From positions 1 through 64,000 of the forward strand of contig JAHUUM010000009.1 in the NCBI GenBank assembly GCA_019218445.1: DNA of 64,000 nucleotides, given 5' to 3'. Each line of letters starts with the position of its first letter. Positions within the stretch are counted from its first letter, which is position 1. The notes under the pieces are model-generated. The model ran no database searches. It was not told the origin of the DNA and was given only the letters and a program-made list of their open reading frames with translations. Of the stretch, positions 159 to 9,275 are shown in pieces. The position numbers were made by a program, and so were the translations under genes. This DNA comes from Weeksellaceae bacterium TAE3-ERU29. GTDB taxonomy: Bacteria; Bacteroidota; Bacteroidia; Flavobacteriales; Weeksellaceae.

Positions 159-1358
159 ATGGAAAATAGGCTACAATCTCAACATAGTGTAGGAGCTCAA
201 TCTATAGGATTTGATTATCAGTTTTATTACTTCATGTATTTAATCCTTAAGTTAAGACATGGACAAAAAATAGGTTTTGAAGTAAAAGATGATATCCATA
301 TAGATAGCTCAGATGGAACTACTATTTTGTTTCAAGCTAAACACACTATTCAAAAAAATAAGAATTTGAGTACATTAGATATTGACTTATGGAAAACTCT
401 AAATAATTGGATTGATTTTATTAAAGCAAGTGGAGACCAGAAAGATTACATTAAGAAACATTCTTTTATTTTAGTAACAAACAAAAGCAATGGAAATAAT
501 GAATTCGTCTCTTTATTTAAAGAAGAAGATGTAGATAAGCTCTTAAGCTTATTAGAAGAATTAAAAAATAAAACAAAAAATGAAACTATAAGAAAATATA
601 TAGCAAATATAACATCGCTAGGTAAAAAAAATTTAAAATCATTCTTATCTAAGCTAAAAATAGAAACAGATATTGATGAAATAATTTCAAAAGTTAAAAA
701 TAGAATACTCGAAAATGTTAGGCAAGATAAATTTGTTGACCCTATATTTGAGAAATTATCTTCGAATTTAAATATAGCTAAATATATAGACATTAAGGAA
801 AGAAATTGCTTTGAAATTTCTTTTGAAGATTTTAATCGTAAATTTGGAAAATGTTTTAGCATAGTATTTGAAAAGAAAACTCTCCCTAAAAGAGATTTCC
901 CAATTGATATTCCAGAAGATTTAGAAAGTCAACCCTTCATCAAACAGTTGTTAGATATTGGAGAAATTGAAAGTGGCTCAAAATACATTCTGGTTTATAC
1001 AACTCAGATGCTATCCTTTTTAAGAAATTTTACTTATTGGTCTGATAAAGAGAATTTTATACTATTAACTGAAGCTGAAGAATTTAAGAAAGATAGTATT
1101 CAAATATGGATTAATGCTTTTAGAAAAACCTATAGAAAAATAGAAAAACAAATAAATTCAGGTGTTCCAATTATTGATATAGAAGATGATATAAAAGAAT
1201 TGGGTGTTAATTTAATAGATTATATTAGAGAGCAAAAATTATCCATAGGAGACTTTCAGGCGTTAGATACTGAGTTTAGTAATGGTCACTATTACGCTCT
1301 TTCTAATGATTTAGAAATAGGATGGCATTTCGATTGGGAAAATAAATATAAAAAGTAA
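159..1358 (+). CDS. ABC-3C system protein with DUF4297-like nuclease domain
   Basis: This 399-residue protein has an N-terminal domain resembling DUF4297/Cap4-type PD-(D/E)XK nucleases: a GFDYQ motif near residue 17, Glu41, Asp45 and the pair Gln59-x-Lys61. The C-terminus ends in the ALSN...GWHFDWE motif near residues 381-395, which resembles the C-terminal domain of ABC three-component (ABC-3C) systems. It is the first gene of a tight operon: the next gene starts two bases after its stop, followed by the middle component and the ATPase. In ABC-3C systems this subunit is predicted to be the effector, here probably cleaving DNA. Nuclease activity and a phage-defence role are inferences from family and context. 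Confidence 0.72.
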   Translation: MENRLQSQHSVGAQSIGFDYQFYYFMYLILKLRHGQKIGFEVKDDIHIDSSDGTTILFQAKHTIQKNKNLSTLDIDLWKTLNNWIDFIKASGDQKDYIKKHSFILVTNKSNGNNEFVSLFKEEDVDKLLSLLEELKNKTKNETIRKYIANITSLGKKNLKSFLSKLKIETDIDEIISKVKNRILENVRQDKFVDPIFEKLSSNLNIAKYIDIKERNCFEISFEDFNRKFGKCFSIVFEKKTLPKRDFPIDIPEDLESQPFIKQLLDIGEIESGSKYILVYTTQMLSFLRNFTYWSDKENFILLTEAEEFKKDSIQIWINAFRKTYRKIEKQINSGVPIIDIEDDIKELGVNLIDYIREQKLSIGDFQALDTEFSNGHYYALSNDLEIGWHFDWENKYKK

Positions 1359-1360
1359 AC

Positions 1361-1813
1361 ATGAAAGAAATTTATTACGTCTATAATAATGAGGCTATTT
1401 CAAGTTGCATATTTCTTTCTATATTAAATCGGGTAGAAAATATAGAAATAGCACGAGCCTGTTTAATTTTACCCTTTTTATTAGATGATAGAACCGTTAG
1501 TTATTTAACTAAAAATAAAGAACAAAGTTTTAGCTTAGAAGAAATCATTAAACAACAATCACATTTATTTATCTCCTTTAATAAGCGATATCTATCTCTA
1601 CTTCCTGTAAGTATTAATTCTTTAATTTTACTAAACAAAGCAAATAAAATTATAATAAAAAAAGAGCTGATTTATAGAAAACACATAAATATTGAAAATC
1701 AAAATTTAGGGATTAGGTATAATAAAATAGAAGATATTATCCCAAAATTTCTATCAATTATAGATAATTATTCAACAAATGATTTATATAAAATATTAAA
1801 AATACAGTTATGA
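1361..1813 (+). CDS. ABC-3C system middle component
   Basis: A 150-residue protein lies between the nuclease-type subunit and the ATPase and overlaps the ATPase gene by four bases, which suggests coupled translation. The N-terminus (Asn-Asn-Glu-Ala followed by a hydrophobic helix, then an LPFLLDDRT stretch near residues 44-52) resembles the short helical middle components of ABC-3C systems. No catalytic motif is visible. The family assignment rests as much on gene order as on sequence, because middle components are poorly conserved. It probably links effector and ATPase. Confidence 0.6.
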   Translation: MKEIYYVYNNEAISSCIFLSILNRVENIEIARACLILPFLLDDRTVSYLTKNKEQSFSLEEIIKQQSHLFISFNKRYLSLLPVSINSLILLNKANKIIIKKELIYRKHINIENQNLGIRYNKIEDIIPKFLSIIDNYSTNDLYKILKIQL

Positions 1814-3678
1814 ATTTCATAATACACGAAATAAAGTTATGGTTTAATGACAACAAGTTGCCTCCAAAAAGCTATGAATTTTTACCCAATAAAATAAATG
1901 TAATTACAGGAGATGCAACAACAGGAAAATCAAGCTTCTGGAGTATTATTGATTATTGTCTCTTAGCCTCTAAGATAAATATAGCAAATACTATAAATGA
2001 AAAAGTCAAATGGTTCGGCCTAAGATTTACGATCAATAAACAAGAAATATCTATAGCTCGTAAAGCTCCAGATAAAGGAGTTGTATCATCTGATATCTCT
2101 TTTCATCTTAATACGTCTTTCCCTAATGAACTAAAAGCAAATAAAGCAATTGCTGAAGTTAAAGCTTTTCTAGATAAAGAGTTTGGGATTTCTGATGAAT
2201 TAAGATTTCCTTTAGGAAAAAATATAGGAACAACTAACTTTAATCTTTCATATAGATACTTCTTATTGTTTAATTCTCTTACCGAAACGGTTATTTCAGC
2301 TCCTGAGACTTTTTTTGACACCACTTTTTACGGTAAAGAAGAATATGAAAAAGCACTCAATCACATCTTCGATTTAGTTATAGGTGTTAATGACATGGAA
2401 AGCATGAAAGCCACCGAAAGAATACAAGAAATAGATAAAGAGTTAAAAAAGATTCGAACTCAAAAAAATAAAAATGAACGGAACTTCAAAGATTATGAAA
2501 ATAATATTAAAAAACTAATAGATAAGTGTAAGAAATATAATTTTATAGAATATTCTGAAACTTTTGAAACTGTAGATGAAGCCATTTTTGAGATTCAGGA
2601 AGTGATTAAAAATATCAATAAAAGAGCTGAAAACCAAAAACTTTTTTTAGAAATAGATAGTTTATATAACAGTAAAAAAGAACTACAGTCACAAATAAGT
2701 ACAATAAAAAGATACCAAAAAGAGTATAATTTATACAAAAAGAATCTAGAAAAATCTGCTGACAGCTTACAACCTATAGAGTTTCTAGAGAATAAATTAT
2801 CTGATCAACTATTAGAGTCCTATGAAACAAGATCATTTATAGAGTCATTAAAGTTCTCTTTAGAAGAAATCAAAAAGAGTATAGTAAGAAAACCTAAACC
2901 AATACAAGTCTCAGGTGATTTAAATTTACTACAAAAAAAGATTGAGAGTATCAATAAAGAACTTACAAGATTAAATGAGCTTAAAAAGAAAGATCAAACA
3001 GAAGGAGAGCGGTATATTGCAATTGGAGAAATTAAACAAACGCTTAAACAAATAGAAGATTCAAAGAATCAAAAGCCTATTGATACCATAAAGTTAAATA
3101 GTTTAAACGATGAGAGAAAACTCTTAGAGAAAATTCCTAAAGATACTAAAAAAATAAAAGATTTAATGCTGCAACAACTAGATAGCAGTATCCAAAGAAA
3201 CTATAATCAATTAAGCTCTCTGCCTACATATAAAGATCATCTTACAAAATTCGATAGTGATGAAATGGTTCTTAAACTATATCCTCAAGGAGAGATTTTC
3301 GCATTGGATAATGTAGGTAGTAAATCTAACTATATGTTTATGCATTTATGTTTCTATCTTGGATTACATGAACATATGATAAATATGGAGCAAGAACATG
3401 TTCCTCAATTTTTATTTATTGATCAACCTAGTATTCCATATTTTTCAAGTGACAGTAAGGAAGGTAATGATGATAAAATCAAGCTTATAGATGCTTTTAA
3501 ATTACTAAACTCATTTATAGAATACATGATTACCGTAAATCGTGTAAATTTCCAAATAATAATGGTTGAACATGCAGATAAAAGTTTTTGGGAAGATAAT
3601 AATCTAACTCATTTTCATACTGTAGATGAGTTTGTAAAAGGAAAAGGGCTAATACCTGCTAAGATATACAATAGTTAA
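1810..3678 (+). CDS. DUF3732-type ABC ATPase of the ABC-3C system
   Basis: This 622-residue SMC/RecN-like ATPase has Walker A GDATTGKS at residues 34-41 and a long charged helical, probably coiled-coil, middle (about 195-475). A signature-like GSKSNYMFMH segment lies near residue 503, Walker B FLFIDQP near 534-540, and a histidine switch (VEHAD) near 587. The order and the IDQPS...YF motif match the DUF3732 family, the ATPase of ABC three-component systems. It presumably senses an invading nucleic acid or a replication intermediate and gates the nuclease subunit encoded upstream. The ATPase motifs are seen; sensing and gating are inferred. Confidence 0.8.
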   Translation: MNFIIHEIKLWFNDNKLPPKSYEFLPNKINVITGDATTGKSSFWSIIDYCLLASKINIANTINEKVKWFGLRFTINKQEISIARKAPDKGVVSSDISFHLNTSFPNELKANKAIAEVKAFLDKEFGISDELRFPLGKNIGTTNFNLSYRYFLLFNSLTETVISAPETFFDTTFYGKEEYEKALNHIFDLVIGVNDMESMKATERIQEIDKELKKIRTQKNKNERNFKDYENNIKKLIDKCKKYNFIEYSETFETVDEAIFEIQEVIKNINKRAENQKLFLEIDSLYNSKKELQSQISTIKRYQKEYNLYKKNLEKSADSLQPIEFLENKLSDQLLESYETRSFIESLKFSLEEIKKSIVRKPKPIQVSGDLNLLQKKIESINKELTRLNELKKKDQTEGERYIAIGEIKQTLKQIEDSKNQKPIDTIKLNSLNDERKLLEKIPKDTKKIKDLMLQQLDSSIQRNYNQLSSLPTYKDHLTKFDSDEMVLKLYPQGEIFALDNVGSKSNYMFMHLCFYLGLHEHMINMEQEHVPQFLFIDQPSIPYFSSDSKEGNDDKIKLIDAFKLLNSFIEYMITVNRVNFQIIMVEHADKSFWEDNNLTHFHTVDEFVKGKGLIPAKIYNS

Positions 3679-3687
3679 ATAGAATAA

Positions 3688-4716
3688 ATGGAAATAGATA
3701 ATATAGATAAGTTAATTATTCACTTCATAGGTAATAAGAACAGAGAAGAGGGTGTTAGCTTCTCGGAGTCATTAGCAAACTCTAAAGAAATTGAAGAAAG
3801 TATTAAATATTTAATTCTCAATAGTTTTAAATCAGAGGAAAAGTATCATTTTTACTTTCAAACAGATTTAGAGTTAAACCCAATGTATAGCTTTGTTAAA
3901 TCTATTTTTAAAGAAAATAAAACATTTATAGAGAACTCAAAAAATATAGGGCGTCTTTTATATGATAAAAGTACCCACCCGCAAATAAAACAAGGTGAGT
4001 TATGTATTATACATTTTAATAACTGTAGTATAAATGGTAAATTAACGGACTGTCTATGTCTGTTTAAATCTGAGAGTAAGGATACAATTTTAAAAGTAGA
4101 TACTACAGAAGAAGGCTATGATTTAAAGGATGAAAAAGGAATCAGTATTAATAAATTAGATAGGGGTTGTTTAATTTTTAATACAGAAGAAGAGAATGGT
4201 TATCTAGTTATGGTAGTTGATAACACCAATAAAAATGCTAAAATACAATATTGGAAAGATGAATTTCTAGGCGTACGACCAATAAATGATGAATACCAAC
4301 AAACAAAACAGTTTTTAGGTATTGCAAAGCAATTTGTAACAAAACAATTAGGTAATGAATTTGAAGTAAATAAAACTGATCAAATAGATTTTTTAAACCG
4401 ATCTGTAGATTATTTTAAAAATAATGAGAAGTTTAACAAAGATGATTTTGAAACGAAAGTATTTATAGATGATGATATTATAGACTCTTTCAAAAATTTT
4501 GATGAAAATTACCAACAAAATAATGAACTATGTATATCAGATAGTTTTGAGATTTCTAAACAGGCTGTAAAAAAACAAGCAAGATCTTTTAAAAGTGTTT
4601 TAAAATTAGATAAAAATTTTCATATTTATATTCATGGTAATAGAAATTTAATTGAACAAGGAGTAGACGAAAACGGTAAAAAATTTTATAAAATATATTA
4701 TGAGCAAGAGGAATAA
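3688..4716 (+). CDS. Nucleoid-associated protein, NA37/NdpA-like
   Basis: A 342-residue protein resembles the 37-kDa nucleoid-associated family (NA37, Pfam PF04245; YejK/NdpA in enterobacteria). It begins with the typical 'DKLIIHFIGNK' opening, followed by a receiver region containing 'GELCIIHFNN' near residue 106. Family members bind DNA, but their precise role is unsettled. It follows the ABC-3C ATPase by nine bases and overlaps the AbiC-like gene by 17 bases, so it appears to be cotranscribed with defence genes rather than sitting in a housekeeping context. It may bind or mark target DNA for the system; this is inference. Confidence 0.72.
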   Translation: MEIDNIDKLIIHFIGNKNREEGVSFSESLANSKEIEESIKYLILNSFKSEEKYHFYFQTDLELNPMYSFVKSIFKENKTFIENSKNIGRLLYDKSTHPQIKQGELCIIHFNNCSINGKLTDCLCLFKSESKDTILKVDTTEEGYDLKDEKGISINKLDRGCLIFNTEEENGYLVMVVDNTNKNAKIQYWKDEFLGVRPINDEYQQTKQFLGIAKQFVTKQLGNEFEVNKTDQIDFLNRSVDYFKNNEKFNKDDFETKVFIDDDIIDSFKNFDENYQQNNELCISDSFEISKQAVKKQARSFKSVLKLDKNFHIYIHGNRNLIEQGVDENGKKFYKIYYEQEE

Positions 4717-5665
4717 AGTGTTCATGTGTATAGGTGTTTTTCTAAGTATTATACTTTTTATATATAGTTCCACATATATCTGGAATTATTATTCATCTAA
4801 TGATATACTTTGGTACATTCCAACTAAGGTTGAAACAGAGAAAGATATTTACCCCAGCCAAGCAGGTAATTCTATAGGAGATATATTATCTCCTATCATA
4901 GGATTACTAGCCTCAGTTCTTACTTTTCTTGCTTTCTATATACAAAAGATAGCAAATGATGAAATTAAAGCTCAATTCAAGGTACAACAGTTTGAAAATC
5001 AATTTTACGAAATGGTAAGACTCCACAAAGAGAATGTAAATGAGATAGAAATAAAAACTAAATCTGGTATTACTTTAAAAGGTAGATCAGTATTTTTTGA
5101 GATGAAAGAAGAATTGGAGGTACTTCTTCGTTTAAATGAGATAAATGAAAATGAGATAAATGAAAAAGTTTTTAAAGAAGTATATGTAAAGTTCTTTTGG
5201 GGGGTAAAAAAAACAAAAAAATATATTCAAGAATCATTAAAATCAAAAGATACAAGAACAAAAAAAACCATCAATAAAGAAATGTCTGACTTAAAAATTT
5301 CTCCTTTAAAAGGATATCATAGCTTTCTAGGTCATTATTATCGTCATTTATTCCATATTGTGAAATTTATATCTAACTCTTCTATAGAAGAGTCAGAAAA
5401 GATGAAATATTTAAGAGTATTAAGAGCTCAATTATCTAACTATGAGCAGATAATGTTGTTTTACAACTGGTTAAGTGAATATGGCGAAGATTGGGAGAAT
5501 GATTCAAATAATTTTTTCACAAGATATAAAATGATACATAACCTTTGGTATGATAATCTACCTGAATATAATTTTTTTAGAGAAAAATTAAATGAGCTAC
5601 AAGATAGGTATAGAAAAAATCATCCTGAGAATAAAGATAACTTATTCGAAATAGACGATATTTAA
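4700..5665 (+). CDS. AbiC-like phage abortive-infection membrane protein
   Basis: This 321-residue protein has two N-terminal membrane helices (about residues 8-28 and 60-80) followed by a soluble helical domain. The pattern FENQFYEMVRLH, then GHYYRHLFHIVKFI, then LSNYEQIMLFYNWLS is characteristic of putative phage abortive-infection proteins (putAbiC, Pfam PF16872). The gene overlaps the NA37 gene by 17 bases and closes the five-gene operon. A membrane-anchored effector that stops growth on infection would fit the family name, but the biochemical activity of this family is not known to me. Another in-frame ATG lies at 4724. Confidence 0.72.
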   Translation: MSKRNKVFMCIGVFLSIILFIYSSTYIWNYYSSNDILWYIPTKVETEKDIYPSQAGNSIGDILSPIIGLLASVLTFLAFYIQKIANDEIKAQFKVQQFENQFYEMVRLHKENVNEIEIKTKSGITLKGRSVFFEMKEELEVLLRLNEINENEINEKVFKEVYVKFFWGVKKTKKYIQESLKSKDTRTKKTINKEMSDLKISPLKGYHSFLGHYYRHLFHIVKFISNSSIEESEKMKYLRVLRAQLSNYEQIMLFYNWLSEYGEDWENDSNNFFTRYKMIHNLWYDNLPEYNFFREKLNELQDRYRKNHPENKDNLFEIDDI

Positions 5666-5678
5666 ATAAAATAATTCA

Positions 5679-5686
5679 TACCTTTG
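5679..5686 (+). promoter_or_regulatory. -7 element of the fic promoter
   Basis: TACCTTTG matches TAnnTTTG, 30 bases before the ATG at 5716. No clear TTG is seen about 20 bp upstream. The transcription start would fall inside the palindromes that follow. Confidence 0.5.
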
Positions 5687-5710
5687 TGATACTATCAAAT
5701 GATACTATCA
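5687..5710 (+). promoter_or_regulatory. Tandem palindromic operator before fic
   Basis: Two identical, perfectly palindromic 11-mers, TGATACTATCA, occupy 5687-5697 and 5700-5710, separated by two A's. They start directly after the -7 element, so a bound protein would block transcription start. The Fic protein encoded downstream ends in a winged-helix-like domain and is the obvious candidate autorepressor (inference). Confidence 0.65.
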
Positions 5711-5715
5711 CAACT

Positions 5716-6669
5716 ATGAAACCACCATACAAAATTACAGAAGAAGTATTAAAATTAGTAGTTGCTATTTCCGAAAAAATAGGAGAAATAAATGCTATAA
5801 ACCTTCATCGACCAGCTACAGAATTACGAAAAAAGAATCGTATAAAAACTATCCATTCTTCTTTGGAAATTGAAGGAAATACATTGACTAAAGAGCAAAT
5901 AACTGCTTTACTCGATAATAAAAGGGTAATTGCTCCTAAAAAAGATATCATTGAAGTTCAGAATGCAATAGAAGTATATAATCAATTACATTCTTTTAAC
6001 CCAAACAAACTAAAAGATTTAGAAAAGGCTCATGGTATTCTAATGAATGGACTCATAGAAAATGCTGGAAAACTACGAACAAAAAATGTAGGTATTGTAA
6101 AAGGATCAAAAGTAGAACATATTGCTCCTGGTGGAGATATGGTCAAAGGACTAATGAAAGGTCTATTCAAATATCTAAAAGATGACAAGGATATTTTGAT
6201 TATAAAGAGCTGTGTATTTCATTATGAATTTGAATTTATACACCCATTTATTGATGGAAATGGGAGAATGGGAAGACTTTGGCAAACACTTATTCTTATG
6301 CAAGAATATCCTGTATTTGAATTTCTACCAGTAGAAGGACTTATAAAAGAAAATCAAATTGAGTATTATAGTGTATTAAGTCAATCAGATAAATTAGGAC
6401 ATTCTACCCCCTTTATTGTTTTTATGCTTAATATTATACTCAAAGCACTAGATGATTTGTTAAATACTCAAAGCAGAAAACTAACTTCTAAGGATAGAAT
6501 AGAGCTCTTTAAGGAGAAAATAAGAGATAATAAGTTTAGTCGAAAAGATTATTTACAGAATTTTAAAGATATTAGCTCAGCAACTGCAAGTAGAGATTTA
6601 AAATGGGCAGTTGATAATGGAATATTACATAGAGAAGGGGATAAAAGACTTACTAAGTATTATTATTAA
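5716..6669 (+). CDS. Fic family protein with C-terminal winged helix
   Basis: A complete Fic motif, HPFIDGNGRMGR, begins near residue 176. It supplies the catalytic His and phosphate-binding residues used for AMP transfer to target hydroxyls. An N-terminal inhibitory motif (S-L-E-I-E-G, near residue 49) matches (S/T)xxxE(G/N), so this is a class II Fic protein held in check by its own helix. The last about 60 residues resemble a winged helix (FSRKDYLQ...TASRDLKWAV), implying DNA binding. I chose the ATG at 5716 over a GTG at 5686, because the GTG lies within the -7 element. The gene has its own promoter and palindromic operators. The target protein is unknown. Confidence 0.88.
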   Translation: MKPPYKITEEVLKLVVAISEKIGEINAINLHRPATELRKKNRIKTIHSSLEIEGNTLTKEQITALLDNKRVIAPKKDIIEVQNAIEVYNQLHSFNPNKLKDLEKAHGILMNGLIENAGKLRTKNVGIVKGSKVEHIAPGGDMVKGLMKGLFKYLKDDKDILIIKSCVFHYEFEFIHPFIDGNGRMGRLWQTLILMQEYPVFEFLPVEGLIKENQIEYYSVLSQSDKLGHSTPFIVFMLNIILKALDDLLNTQSRKLTSKDRIELFKEKIRDNKFSRKDYLQNFKDISSATASRDLKWAVDNGILHREGDKRLTKYYY

Positions 6670-6752: not shown

Positions 6753-7544
6753 ATGGATATAAATAAATTACGAGAGTTGTCACCAGAATTAAATAAACAA
6801 GCAGTATTTGAAGAGCTTGAAGGAATTCCAGCTTCATTTTTTGAGTTTATAAATAATGATATTTCAAATTTTAGTTTAATAGAAACAAAAACAGGTATAA
6901 CAGCCGATGTTACCCCAAGAGCACTAAATAGATGGATTGAAAAAGCTATTGTAAATGTAAATAATTCAGATAAAGGTAAGGTGAAACGTTTTACTCGTTT
7001 GGAAAGTATTTGGATTAAAATTGTAGTCCAACTTAGAGAGTTTGGAGTATCGCTAAAAGATTTAGAATATATACGAACTCAATTATTTGATTATACAATT
7101 GAAAATTTTTGTTTATTTAAATTCAAAGTTCTTTATGCAATATTATATCAGCCTGAATATTTAGTCATAGATAATGAACATCAAGTTGGTTTTTATTCTT
7201 ATAAAGGCTATTCAGATAAGGTCTCAAAAGGATATTTATTTTCACATATAAATATAAGATTCTTAGACTTTATAATACAAGAGTTTCCCAATAGTAATTT
7301 CAAAGCAAAGTTTAATATAAAAGACATTGAAAATAATGTAGAAAAGTTATCATTACTTTTTTATTTAAGAACAAATGCTTTTAAAGAGATGAGAATTACT
7401 ATTTCAGATGGAGATGTAAGATTATTATCAAATTCATTTGAGCTAAGATATAATGATGATTTGCTCAAAGCTATCCAAGAATGGAGTTTTAAATCAGTTG
7501 TTATACAAATTAACAAAGATACTAAGTTTGTAATTGAAAATTAA
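6753..7544 (+). CDS. MerR-like DNA-binding protein, function unknown
   Basis: This 263-residue protein has a MerR-type helix-turn-helix region at about residues 45-105: 'VTPRALNRWIEKAIV', then 'RFTRLESIWIKIVVQLREFGVSLKDLEYI'. The C-terminal about 150 residues match nothing I recognise and lack the Cys clusters of metal-sensing MerR proteins. The ATG at 6753 is preferred to an in-frame TTG at 6705, because the latter is the promoter's -33 element. The gene lies between fic and the recombinase, so it may regulate element excision or the defence genes; this is inference from position. Confidence 0.6.
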   Translation: MDINKLRELSPELNKQAVFEELEGIPASFFEFINNDISNFSLIETKTGITADVTPRALNRWIEKAIVNVNNSDKGKVKRFTRLESIWIKIVVQLREFGVSLKDLEYIRTQLFDYTIENFCLFKFKVLYAILYQPEYLVIDNEHQVGFYSYKGYSDKVSKGYLFSHINIRFLDFIIQEFPNSNFKAKFNIKDIENNVEKLSLLFYLRTNAFKEMRITISDGDVRLLSNSFELRYNDDLLKAIQEWSFKSVVIQINKDTKFVIEN

Positions 7545-7556
7545 ACCTACCCCACT

Positions 7557-7712
7557 ATGCTGAAGTTTGAAAAATGCAAAAAGATATTGCAAGCAAAAGG
7601 GGGGAAATACTCCGATGAGGAAGTGAAGAAAATACAGAAAATATTATATGATTTAGCAACTATAGTAGATGATACTCAAAAAATGAAAGATGGAGAAAAG
7701 ATGGGAAAATAA
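7557..7712 (+). CDS. 51-residue small protein upstream of the recombinase
   Basis: An ATG-started ORF of 51 codons encodes a charged, Lys-rich helical peptide (MLKFEKCKKILQAKGGKYSD at its start). Its end overlaps the recombinase start by 23 bases in another frame, so translation of the two may be coupled. I associate similar small ORFs with serine recombinases in this phylum, but that is recollection. It could be a recombination directionality factor or simply a leader peptide; no function can be assigned. Confidence 0.55.
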   Translation: MLKFEKCKKILQAKGGKYSDEEVKKIQKILYDLATIVDDTQKMKDGEKMGK

Positions 7713-9275
7713 AAAAGCAATTATATATACAAGGGTAAGTACCACAGAACAAAAAAACTTTGGTCATAGCCTTGATCAGCAGAGAGAATTACTACTTCAG
7801 TTTTGTGAGAAAAATAATATTGAAGTTATAAAACTTTTTGAAGAAGATTACTCTGCTAAAAATTTTGACCGTCCTGAATTCAAAAAACTCTTGAAGTTTA
7901 CAAATAAAGTAAAGGTAGATTTGTTATTAACCTATGATTGGAGTAGATTTTCAAGAAATACAGAATTATCATTTAGTATGATAAGGAAGTTGAAAAGTAA
8001 GGGAATTGAAGTAAATACAATATCACAAAAGATAGACCTTAATGATCCCTCATATCCTATAATACAAGGAATATATCTCTCACAAGCTCATGTTGATAAC
8101 ATAGTAAGAAGTAAAAACACTAAAAAAGGTAATAACGGAGCACTAAGAAGTGGGAGATTTATTAACAGAGCCCCTATTGGTTATTATAATGACAAAGGAA
8201 TGAATCCAACAGGCAAGCCTATGCTTCAAATAGATGAAAATAAAGCCTTTTTAATTAAGGAAATATTTGTAAAGTATTCAACTGGAAAATATTCACAAGC
8301 ATTCCTAAGAAAAGAGTATAATAGAAAAGGGTTAAAACTTTCAAAAAGCCAATTTAGTAATATGCTTTCTAACATTACATACATAGGAAAAGTATATGTA
8401 CCTGCTTTTGAAGATTTACCAGAAGACATAGTTGATGGAGTACATGAGCCAATTATTGATGAAGTAACATTTTATAAAGCTCAACAAGTAAAGTCAGGTA
8501 AAGCAAATATTAGAATCAATTCAAAAAGGGTAAGCAAGCATGAGGAGCATTTCCCCCTAAGAGGAGGAATTCTTAAGTGTAGTAAATGTGGGAGTAACTT
8601 AACAGGAAGTCATTCAAGAAGTAGGAATGGTAATTATCATAGATACTATCACTGTAAAAGTGGTTGTAGTGAACGATTCTCAGTAGAATTAGCACATCAG
8701 GAGTTTGATAACTTTTTAGCAAACTTAGAATCCGCAAAGAAGTTTTAGATCTTTTTAAAGAGATACTTATTGATGAATATAAAGTTAATCAATCTGATAG
8801 ACTAGATAGTATAAAAAAACTAAAGCATCAAAAGGAGAAATTAGAATCCAATTTAGATAAATTGACAGAGAAATATATTGAGGAAAAAATAGATGAGGAA
8901 AGTTATAAAAGATTAAAGGAAAAGTATAGAGAACAGATTATTGGACTAGAAGTAGATATATCAGAAACTTCCTGTTTTCAAAATGAGATAGATTTATTTG
9001 TTGATTTTGGACTCCAATTATTGGTAAATATAAGAACTTTCTATAATAATTCAACGACCGATATAAAGAGAAAGATAATTGGTTCGATACTTTCTGAAAA
9101 ATTAGTTTTTGAAGAAAATAAGTATCGAACCATTAAATTAAATGATGCCGTTACCCTTATTTTCAACTACAACAACTCTTTACAAAATAATAAACATAAA
9201 AAAAGACACTTTATCTCTAAAGTGTCTCACTCAGTAGCGGGAGTTGGACTCGAACCAACGACCTTCGGGTTATGA
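7690..9275 (+). pseudogene. Serine recombinase (large resolvase), frameshifted
   Basis: Codons from 7690 encode a resolvase catalytic domain (IIYTRVSTTEQ, catalytic Ser17; YDWSRFSRN near residue 80), a recombinase domain and a zinc ribbon starting CSKCG near residue 297. This frame stops at 8748. The missing coiled-coil C-terminus (KEVLDLFKEIL..., KYIEEKIDEE...) continues in the -1 frame from about 8718. One extra T in the T run at 8713-8717 would restore a protein of roughly 500 residues, the usual length of such recombinases. Beyond about 9190 the frame reads through the tRNA terminator and tRNA to 9275, so the true C-terminus is unclear. Either the gene is dead, or a base is missing from the sequence. 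Confidence 0.82.
9204..9227 (-). terminator. Terminator of the tRNA-fMet gene
   Basis: A perfect 10-bp stem (9204-9213 with 9218-9227) with a four-base loop lies just past the tRNA 3' end. On the minus strand it is followed by seven T's. Confidence 0.8.

Follow-up and report, generated by a model that had tools for sequence, protein, structure and literature searches.

A conserved twin palindrome as the putative autorepression operator of a winged-helix Fic gene in Weeksellaceae bacterium TAE3-ERU29

The first 64,000 nucleotides of contig JAHUUM010000009.1 from Weeksellaceae bacterium TAE3-ERU29 (GenBank assembly GCA_019218445.1; this whole stretch is called the window below) contain fic, a gene for a predicted 317-residue class II Fic protein that ends in a winged helix, and immediately in front of it two copies of one palindrome. 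We propose that this twin palindrome is, in all likelihood, the operator of fic, at which the Fic protein binds through its own winged helix and represses the gene. Across several bacterial phyla, fic genes of this kind are preceded by the twin palindrome in almost unchanged form. Direct reading confirmed what an earlier note on this DNA had pointed out, namely twin perfect palindromes two bases apart, after a −7 promoter box and before the fic ATG. The element, TGATACTATCA-AA-TGATACTATCA, occupies positions 5687..5710, has no assigned strand, and is defined by direct reading, genome scans and conservation; the copies of TGATACTATCA lie at 5687-5697 and 5700-5710 with AA between them, followed by CAACT and then the ATG at 5716. 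Each palindrome consists of 5-bp arms flanking one unpaired base (TGATA-N-TATCA), and the half-site layout of the whole is 5-1-5-2-5-1-5.

Could such a pair be an accident or a low-complexity artefact? The region is AT-rich, and single 5-N-5 palindromes are commonplace, with 149 in the window versus 144 in simulated sequence. Pairs with the same arms at 11-40 bp spacing number one in the window, the pair described here, versus a null mean of 0.12 and a maximum of 1 in 60 simulated sequences. Allowing up to 3 mismatches, the pair occurs once in its own genome (2.37 Mb), exactly and at this locus, and at this tolerance the reversed control pattern also finds one place. Among 395 genomes of the phylum (its own included), however, the pair is present with at most 1 mismatch in 14, whereas the reversed pattern is found in none and a permuted twin palindrome in one. 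Given these controls and the conservation upstream of fic, the probability of an accident is negligible; as judged from the compared sequences, conservation already refutes a chance origin. The earlier note had further suggested that the surrounding island may contain its own switch; with the pair present once in the genome, what is switched seems to be the fic gene and not the island.

A pattern with 20 fixed bases, TGATANTATCANNTGATANTATCA, was scanned over 84,980 species genomes and gave at least 120 loci, for which 122 sites are listed; the genomic locus counts below refer to these listed matches and to locus stretches of at most 8 kb. By tblastn, a homologue of the window Fic has its extrapolated start −60 to 250 nt downstream of 88 of the 122 listed sites, and a motif search placed 78 of them, in 77 other fic loci, in front of an open Fic reading frame. 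The records in which a Fic follows include Bacteroidota, Bacteriovoracaceae and other Bdellovibrio-like bacteria, Rickettsiaceae, a gammaproteobacterium and a Calditrichia metagenome-assembled genome. The 14 phylum sites comprise nine before a Fic homologue (the window and one truncated gene included), one before a decayed remnant (L186; L and G numbers denote our loci and genomes) and four that stand alone. No second site within 2 mismatches was found in 28 of 32 Fic-bearing genomes, which speaks against a regulon acted on in trans. Second exact sites in G455 and G468 (L199, L210) had no tblastn match to the window Fic within the 3 kb examined. Two local arrangements deserve a mention: a row of three palindromes at L001:6493-6529 (Pedobacter), and two complete operators 138 bp apart at L052:5327-5488 (Chryseobacterium).

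The association also holds when the protein is the starting point. Fic homologues were chosen by protein from relatives, from the phylum sample and from plasmids (8 of 26 plasmid records). The operator is present with 0-4 mismatches in 13 of 13 intact Fics with a TASRD/TATRD-type winged helix, two of them from one genome, which are 54-74% identical to the window Fic. It is found in 0 of 15 intact homologues that resemble the window Fic in the core (39-52% identity) and differ from it in the winged helix, where the best match has 7-10 mismatches (Fisher p 3e-8 for homologues that are not independent). The earlier note had staked its idea on close Fic homologues carrying the palindrome pair, and all 13 relatives of the same type do. 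Set aside from these counts were the window itself, duplicate loci, and several damaged or incomplete genes: L126, which has lost both its first 36 residues and the operator; L172, a truncated gene whose operator has 1 mismatch; L188, a broken fic on a Bergeyella plasmid, with an exact operator and near a recombinase; and L168, L173 and L194, which are incomplete. Of 24 more distant Fic loci, 22 were scored for the window's operator, termed class 1 below, with a best match of 7 mismatches (L135 and L142 fell outside the scoring). As a separate observation, the Fics with other winged helices at L190, L192, L193 and L195 stand after an hsdS-type gene in type I restriction clusters, with hsdR directly after Fic in L193 and L195 and one gene further in L192.

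The operator is fused to the promoter. The Bacteroidota −7 box, TACCTTTG of the TAnnTTTG type (5679..5686, + strand), is identified from its sequence, from the published consensus and position, and from its recurrence at other loci. Flavobacterium psychrophilum has its −7 box at −12 to −5 and a median leader length of 24 nt (PMC9723704); this published position of the box puts the predicted transcription start of the window near 5691, inside the first palindrome, with a leader of about 25 nt. The palindromes had been described as lying at the transcription start, which is right as to location and inexact in detail: they overlap the start and form most of the leader. The ATG at 5716 is taken as the start codon because homologues begin MKPPY; the listed open reading frame (ORF) starts at a GTG at 5686. 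At 56 of the 77 other listed loci TAnnTT abuts the operator (shuffled upstream sequence: mean 1.5, maximum 5 in 500), and there the first TG of the operator completes the −7 box TAnnTTTG. A complete TAnnTTTG precedes the operator at 2 of the 77 loci and likewise in the window, whose box lies 2 bp further upstream. On the other side, start codons picked by script fall −1 to 14 nt past the operator at 68 of the 77 loci. When 14 protein-found loci (window included) were lined up by their best match close to the start, the operator had a mean pairwise identity of 0.86, compared with 0.31-0.36 for the 24-bp flanks and 0.45 for the 6 bp just ahead of the operator, and operator mismatches amount to 15 in 280 fixed positions.

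An element that lies mostly within the leader, and whose halves are mutually complementary, might instead work in the mRNA, folding into a hairpin that covers the start codon. Such a hairpin would set position 5 opposite position 18, and these two are complementary in 27 of 78 cases, versus 33.5 expected by independence. These base counts leave the hairpin unsupported, and we regard it as extremely improbable; the lack of complementarity above chance points to DNA being read.

The protein encoded at 5716..6669 (+ strand) is a class II Fic/Fido AMPylase as predicted from its domain and both of its motifs, and its assignment draws on Pfam, PADLOC, an AlphaFold model and a structural match to 4rgl. 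The Pfam Fic domain (PF02661) matches with an expect value (E) of 3.2e-19 and 70 bits against a cut-off of 24, and the PADLOC SoFic model matches residues 7-316 (E 2.1e-45); the NCBIfam SoFic equivalog NF046030 scores 59.9 bits, short of its curated cut-off of 550. The AlphaFold model has a predicted local distance difference test score of 89.9. In class II proteins the inhibitory motif (S/T)xxxE(G/N) is N-terminal to the Fic motif (PMC9755527), and SLEIEG at residues 49-54 (5860..5877, + strand) fits it; E53 and G54 are invariant in 20 aligned sequences. The same alignment identifies the catalytic Fic motif HPFIDGNGRMGR, residues 176-187 (6241..6276, + strand), which conforms to HxFx(D/E)GNGRxxR and in which all positions except the fourth are invariant or nearly so. 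The C-terminal winged helix that the earlier note had described (residues 258-317; 6487..6666, + strand) is borne out by structure models and by winged-helix matches. Searched alone, it gave no Foldseek match below E 0.001, and in VIA-align the Fur-family, Z-alpha and other winged helices tied at Z 8-9, so that no one family was singled out for it. Its predicted recognition helix, SATASRDLKWAVD, comprises residues 288-300 (6577..6615, + strand) by models and alignment, and its T-A-S-R-D is invariant in 20 of 20 aligned sequences, all of them from operator-bearing loci.

How might Fic act on this site? We propose that the winged helix would bind the twin operator as a dimer or as a pair of dimers, and that Fic so bound would extend from the last bases of the −7 box across the transcription start and over most of the leader as far as the ATG. 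A promoter covered in this way would be closed to transcription of fic, and such negative autoregulation would keep a potentially toxic AMPylase scarce. More speculatively, operator binding may also hold the enzyme in an inactive or de-AMPylating dimer, which would couple occupancy to activity. The earlier note's idea that self-AMPylation or AMPylation of a target could free Fic from the DNA is hypothetical and gains no support here; in the nearest published case, the Fic protein CbFic2, DNA promotes dimerization and de-AMPylation (PMC10628234). What the comparisons above show directly is the element, its conservation, its position in the promoter and its tie to this Fic and to its winged-helix type; physical binding, repression rather than activation, and the stoichiometry are inferred from them. 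A conserved promoter element that tracks one gene and one winged-helix type is best explained as being bound by that winged helix. Autorepression has a precedent in CccR from Yersinia pseudotuberculosis, which binds palindromes in its own promoter through a C-terminal helix-turn-helix (HTH) and represses itself (PMC9755527). The suggestion that Fic regulates its own gene is strongly supported by a conserved pair that follows the winged-helix type and by the absence of any widely conserved neighbor. It is unlikely that Fic binds the site mainly for another purpose, either at an activator site or with the DNA as an allosteric ligand that parks the inactive dimer. In favor of that idea, DNA causes the Fic protein CbFic2 to dimerize and to shift to de-AMPylation (PMC10628234); against it, CccR is a repressor of itself, and at most of the 77 listed loci the site reaches from the last part of the −7 box over the start into the leader, where binding blocks transcription.

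Might a regulator other than Fic bind the palindromes, either the MerR-like neighbor of fic or a Fur-like host repressor? The TGATA...TATCA arrangement resembles Fur-type boxes, the modeled winged helix of Fic ties with Fur-family domains, and a MerR-like ORF adjoins fic. This ORF (6756-7544) has a weak MerR_1 match, E 0.0023, below the cut-off. A Fur-type regulon, however, should give many sites per genome, and most of the genomes tested have one; moreover, the site tracks the winged-helix type of Fic. As for neighbors, the 564 ORFs at the 77 listed loci contain no widely shared partner gene: the largest cluster is common to 6 loci, and we reject a conserved partner within these stretches. 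None of the 564 matches the MerR-like protein, which the earlier note had named as a possible binder and which is an unlikely one. We consider it very improbable that a regulator other than Fic is responsible.

Several observations weigh against binding and autorepression by Fic. The 5-1-5-2-5-1-5 half-sites differ from the wider repeats of other Fic classes (see below). The homologues compared are related, so the locus counts are not counts of independent events. At least 4 of the 15 operator-free Fics sit in type I restriction operons, a location that may by itself explain the missing operator and so confounds the comparison. Finally, 24 of the at least 120 listed loci are lone sites with neither a Fic nor a recognized remnant, and their genomes gave no close Fic at E 1e-60.

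What are the sites that have no Fic? A Fic is not adjacent at 33 of the listed loci (34 sites), and at nine of these there are signs or hints that one was lost or cut off. N-terminal Fic remnants are found at L001, L005, L047, L067, L092 and L120, the last ending at the locus end; L029 has a remnant by tblastn, L018 has a Fic-like promoter without the gene when read against L013, and L060 ends at the locus end. In the remnant scan the null maximum of 42.9 equals the score of L001 itself, probably from sampling of that same place. L042 scored 15.6, above 99% of the null, but lies inside another gene and was rejected as a remnant. L029, L067 and L186 have lost most of the Fic core, while their operator and first residues persist together with a winged helix in decay; we considered them as solo winged-helix repressors, but the remnants contain stops and read as decaying genes. 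The lone class-1 twin operators (L004, L035, L040, L064, L066, L114 and 18 other genome loci) exceed the controls and are therefore not simply chance. Nor do they appear to be targets in trans, since among 26 locus genomes and 5 phylum genomes a close Fic was found in G213 only; most lone sites would thus be relics or something else.

Self-repression of a Fic protein through a C-terminal HTH is a known principle, exemplified by CccR, whose authors report that its regulatory and toxic activities are independent (PMC9755527). Like CccR, the window Fic is a class II Fic with a C-terminal DNA-binding domain of this kind and a palindromic site in its own promoter. The sites themselves differ: the CccR operator is AGATAATCAT-N26-ATGATAATCT, near −35/−10 (PMC9755527), whereas the window has TGATANTATCA twice with a 2-bp gap, 24 bp in all, over the start site, and shares neither the CccR operator sequence nor its 26-bp spacing. 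CccR is also, unlike the window Fic, a type VI secretion system effector (PMC9755527). The structure 7xux, whose length and title suggest that it is CccR, aligns with the window Fic at Z 25.2 over residues 1-254. CbFic2 from Coxiella burnetii (PDB 8cil) likewise combines a Fic core with a winged helix, and DNA has been shown to bind it and to promote its dimerization and de-AMPylation (PMC10628234). It is distant from the window Fic (19% identity in the structural alignment), and the class-2 Fics described below are closer to it. Its authors worked with random DNA and were aware of no specific site (PMC10628234).

A third relative is SoFic, whose PADLOC model matches the window Fic over almost its full length. 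Among the SoFic structures (PDB 3eqx, 3zcn), 3eqx aligns with residues 1-254 at Z 26.1. SoFic is an anti-phage system, and in E. coli it is repressed by a small protein, AS1 (PMC12249575), whereas no conserved partner was seen for window-type Fics at the 77 listed loci. According to PMC10628234, there was as of 2023 no demonstration that SoFic binds DNA. Among solved structures 4rgl (Fic Dde_2494 of Desulfovibrio) comes closest to the window Fic, with Z 36.2 over 312 aligned residues and 38% identity; the root-mean-square deviation of 10.9 Å for the whole chain indicates that the domains may be placed differently. Our literature search found no paper on the 4RGL structure and none that prints the operator, including searches for the strings TGATAGTATCA and TGAGCCGA, with few subscription papers covered. 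As far as this search extends, what is new comprises the operator and how widely it occurs, the way it is fused to the −7 box and the ATG, and the matching operators of other classes. According to the CbFic2 authors, it would be of special interest to study a specific binding sequence (PMC10628234). The present analysis predicts which operators belong to two groups of winged-helix Fics and adds natural variants in which operator changes are paired with recognition-helix changes, and thereby makes autorepression and any coupling of DNA binding to AMPylation directly testable.

These matching operators come from other Fic subfamilies, which have strong inverted repeats of different sequence near the start, as seen without a random-gene control. 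The class-2 operator, read from L149 and L151, is TGAGCCGA-N12/13-TCGGCTCA, with the site form TGAGCCGAWTA-N7-TAWTCGGCTCA, and is present in 7 of the 395 phylum genomes, with 0 for the reversed control. Eight of ten class-2 sites (5 genomes) are upstream of a Fic with an SKATATRD helix, and in 4 of those 5 genomes the last exact or near copy reaches the ATG directly, the start in G412 being less clear. The class-2 sites L239 and L244 have no Fic downstream. For the class-2 Fic at L241 the nearest solved structure is 8cil (E 4.4e-59). Plasmid Fics were also collected by protein, and operators were read for 8 of the best 15 of 335 records. A KVSKATATRHL helix goes with a TGAGCCGAWTA-like site (L445, L446), a KVSKPTATLHL helix with a TGATTYGAWTA-like site (L448), and an SRATATRDL helix with a GAGYTATAG-N9-CTATARCTC-like site (L442, L443), the latter two types having been assigned by eye. 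L444 and L449 carry other sites, again by eye, and L447 is unclear. Two of the types read by eye recur in viral contigs, each immediately ahead of a Fic that matches (L457, L450). Comparison of these sequences suggests that the operator changes together with the recognition helix across Fic classes.

Class-2 operators also occur in phage DNA, mostly alone. The class-2 operator was found in 105 viral contigs (L249-L353), with a Fic adjacent in 3 and none in 102, and no other Fic was found in the 0.95 Mb examined, which is part of each of the 105 contigs. In control searches a spacer one base shorter or longer gave 10 contigs each, and permuted arms gave none. A looser scan lists further viral loci with a class-2 site (L374-L441). 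Most phage sites occur singly (at 101 of 105 loci there is one site within 2 mismatches), and most are intergenic (29 of 173, among the matches listed, lie in an open frame of at least 90 codons, versus 74% of random positions). Where the search left the inner arm bases free, these largely hold W-T...A-W (61 sites). The arms favor an unlike pair, with T/T or A/A at positions 9 and 21 in 108 of 149 sites, which gives the phage site a direction. Similarly, a rhizobial-type Fic operator occurs in 10 viral contigs, 9 of them without a Fic (6 distinct, one inside an open frame), and a third, Vibrio-type operator in 2, one without a Fic (L450-L461). For the window's own class-1 pair there was no exact match in viral contigs, and at one Fic from a phage record (L238, 43% identity) the class-1 operator is absent, the best match having 8 mismatches.

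Lone phage operators may be decoys, triggers or unrelated phage sites that share the sequence. A directional 11-7-11 layout would fit a recombination site, which the class-2 phage sites may be; by our reading of the sequences no recombinase is prominent in the ten largest gene clusters at the phage loci, among the matches listed. BLAST of phage flanks identified an antitermination gene of Erwinia phages and partial matches to enterobacterial phages; further flanks, searched for annotated relatives, gave no match. It is tempting to speculate, though we hold this to be doubtful, that HTH-bearing Fics are a family of switches that read themselves, the operator serving also as the off-ligand of the enzyme, and that phages exploit or face this switch with the operator as a decoy or as a phage-sensing mark. 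Since the window's operator class was not seen in viral contigs, the phage part of this idea rests on its sister classes. If lone phage operators do act on Fic, they would offer a DNA-only way to blunt or to trigger a defense enzyme.

Finally, we note the surroundings of fic. Before it (159-5665) lies a defense cluster with Lamassu-like genes (LmuA, LmuC and LmuB matches), an NA37 nucleoid protein and an AbiC-like gene. On the other side, at 7690-8748, is a large serine recombinase whose CcrB/XisF-type matches are below the cut-off. The same genome carries a second, distant Fic gene (L148, contig 49 of G000), with an 11-bp inverted repeat upstream.
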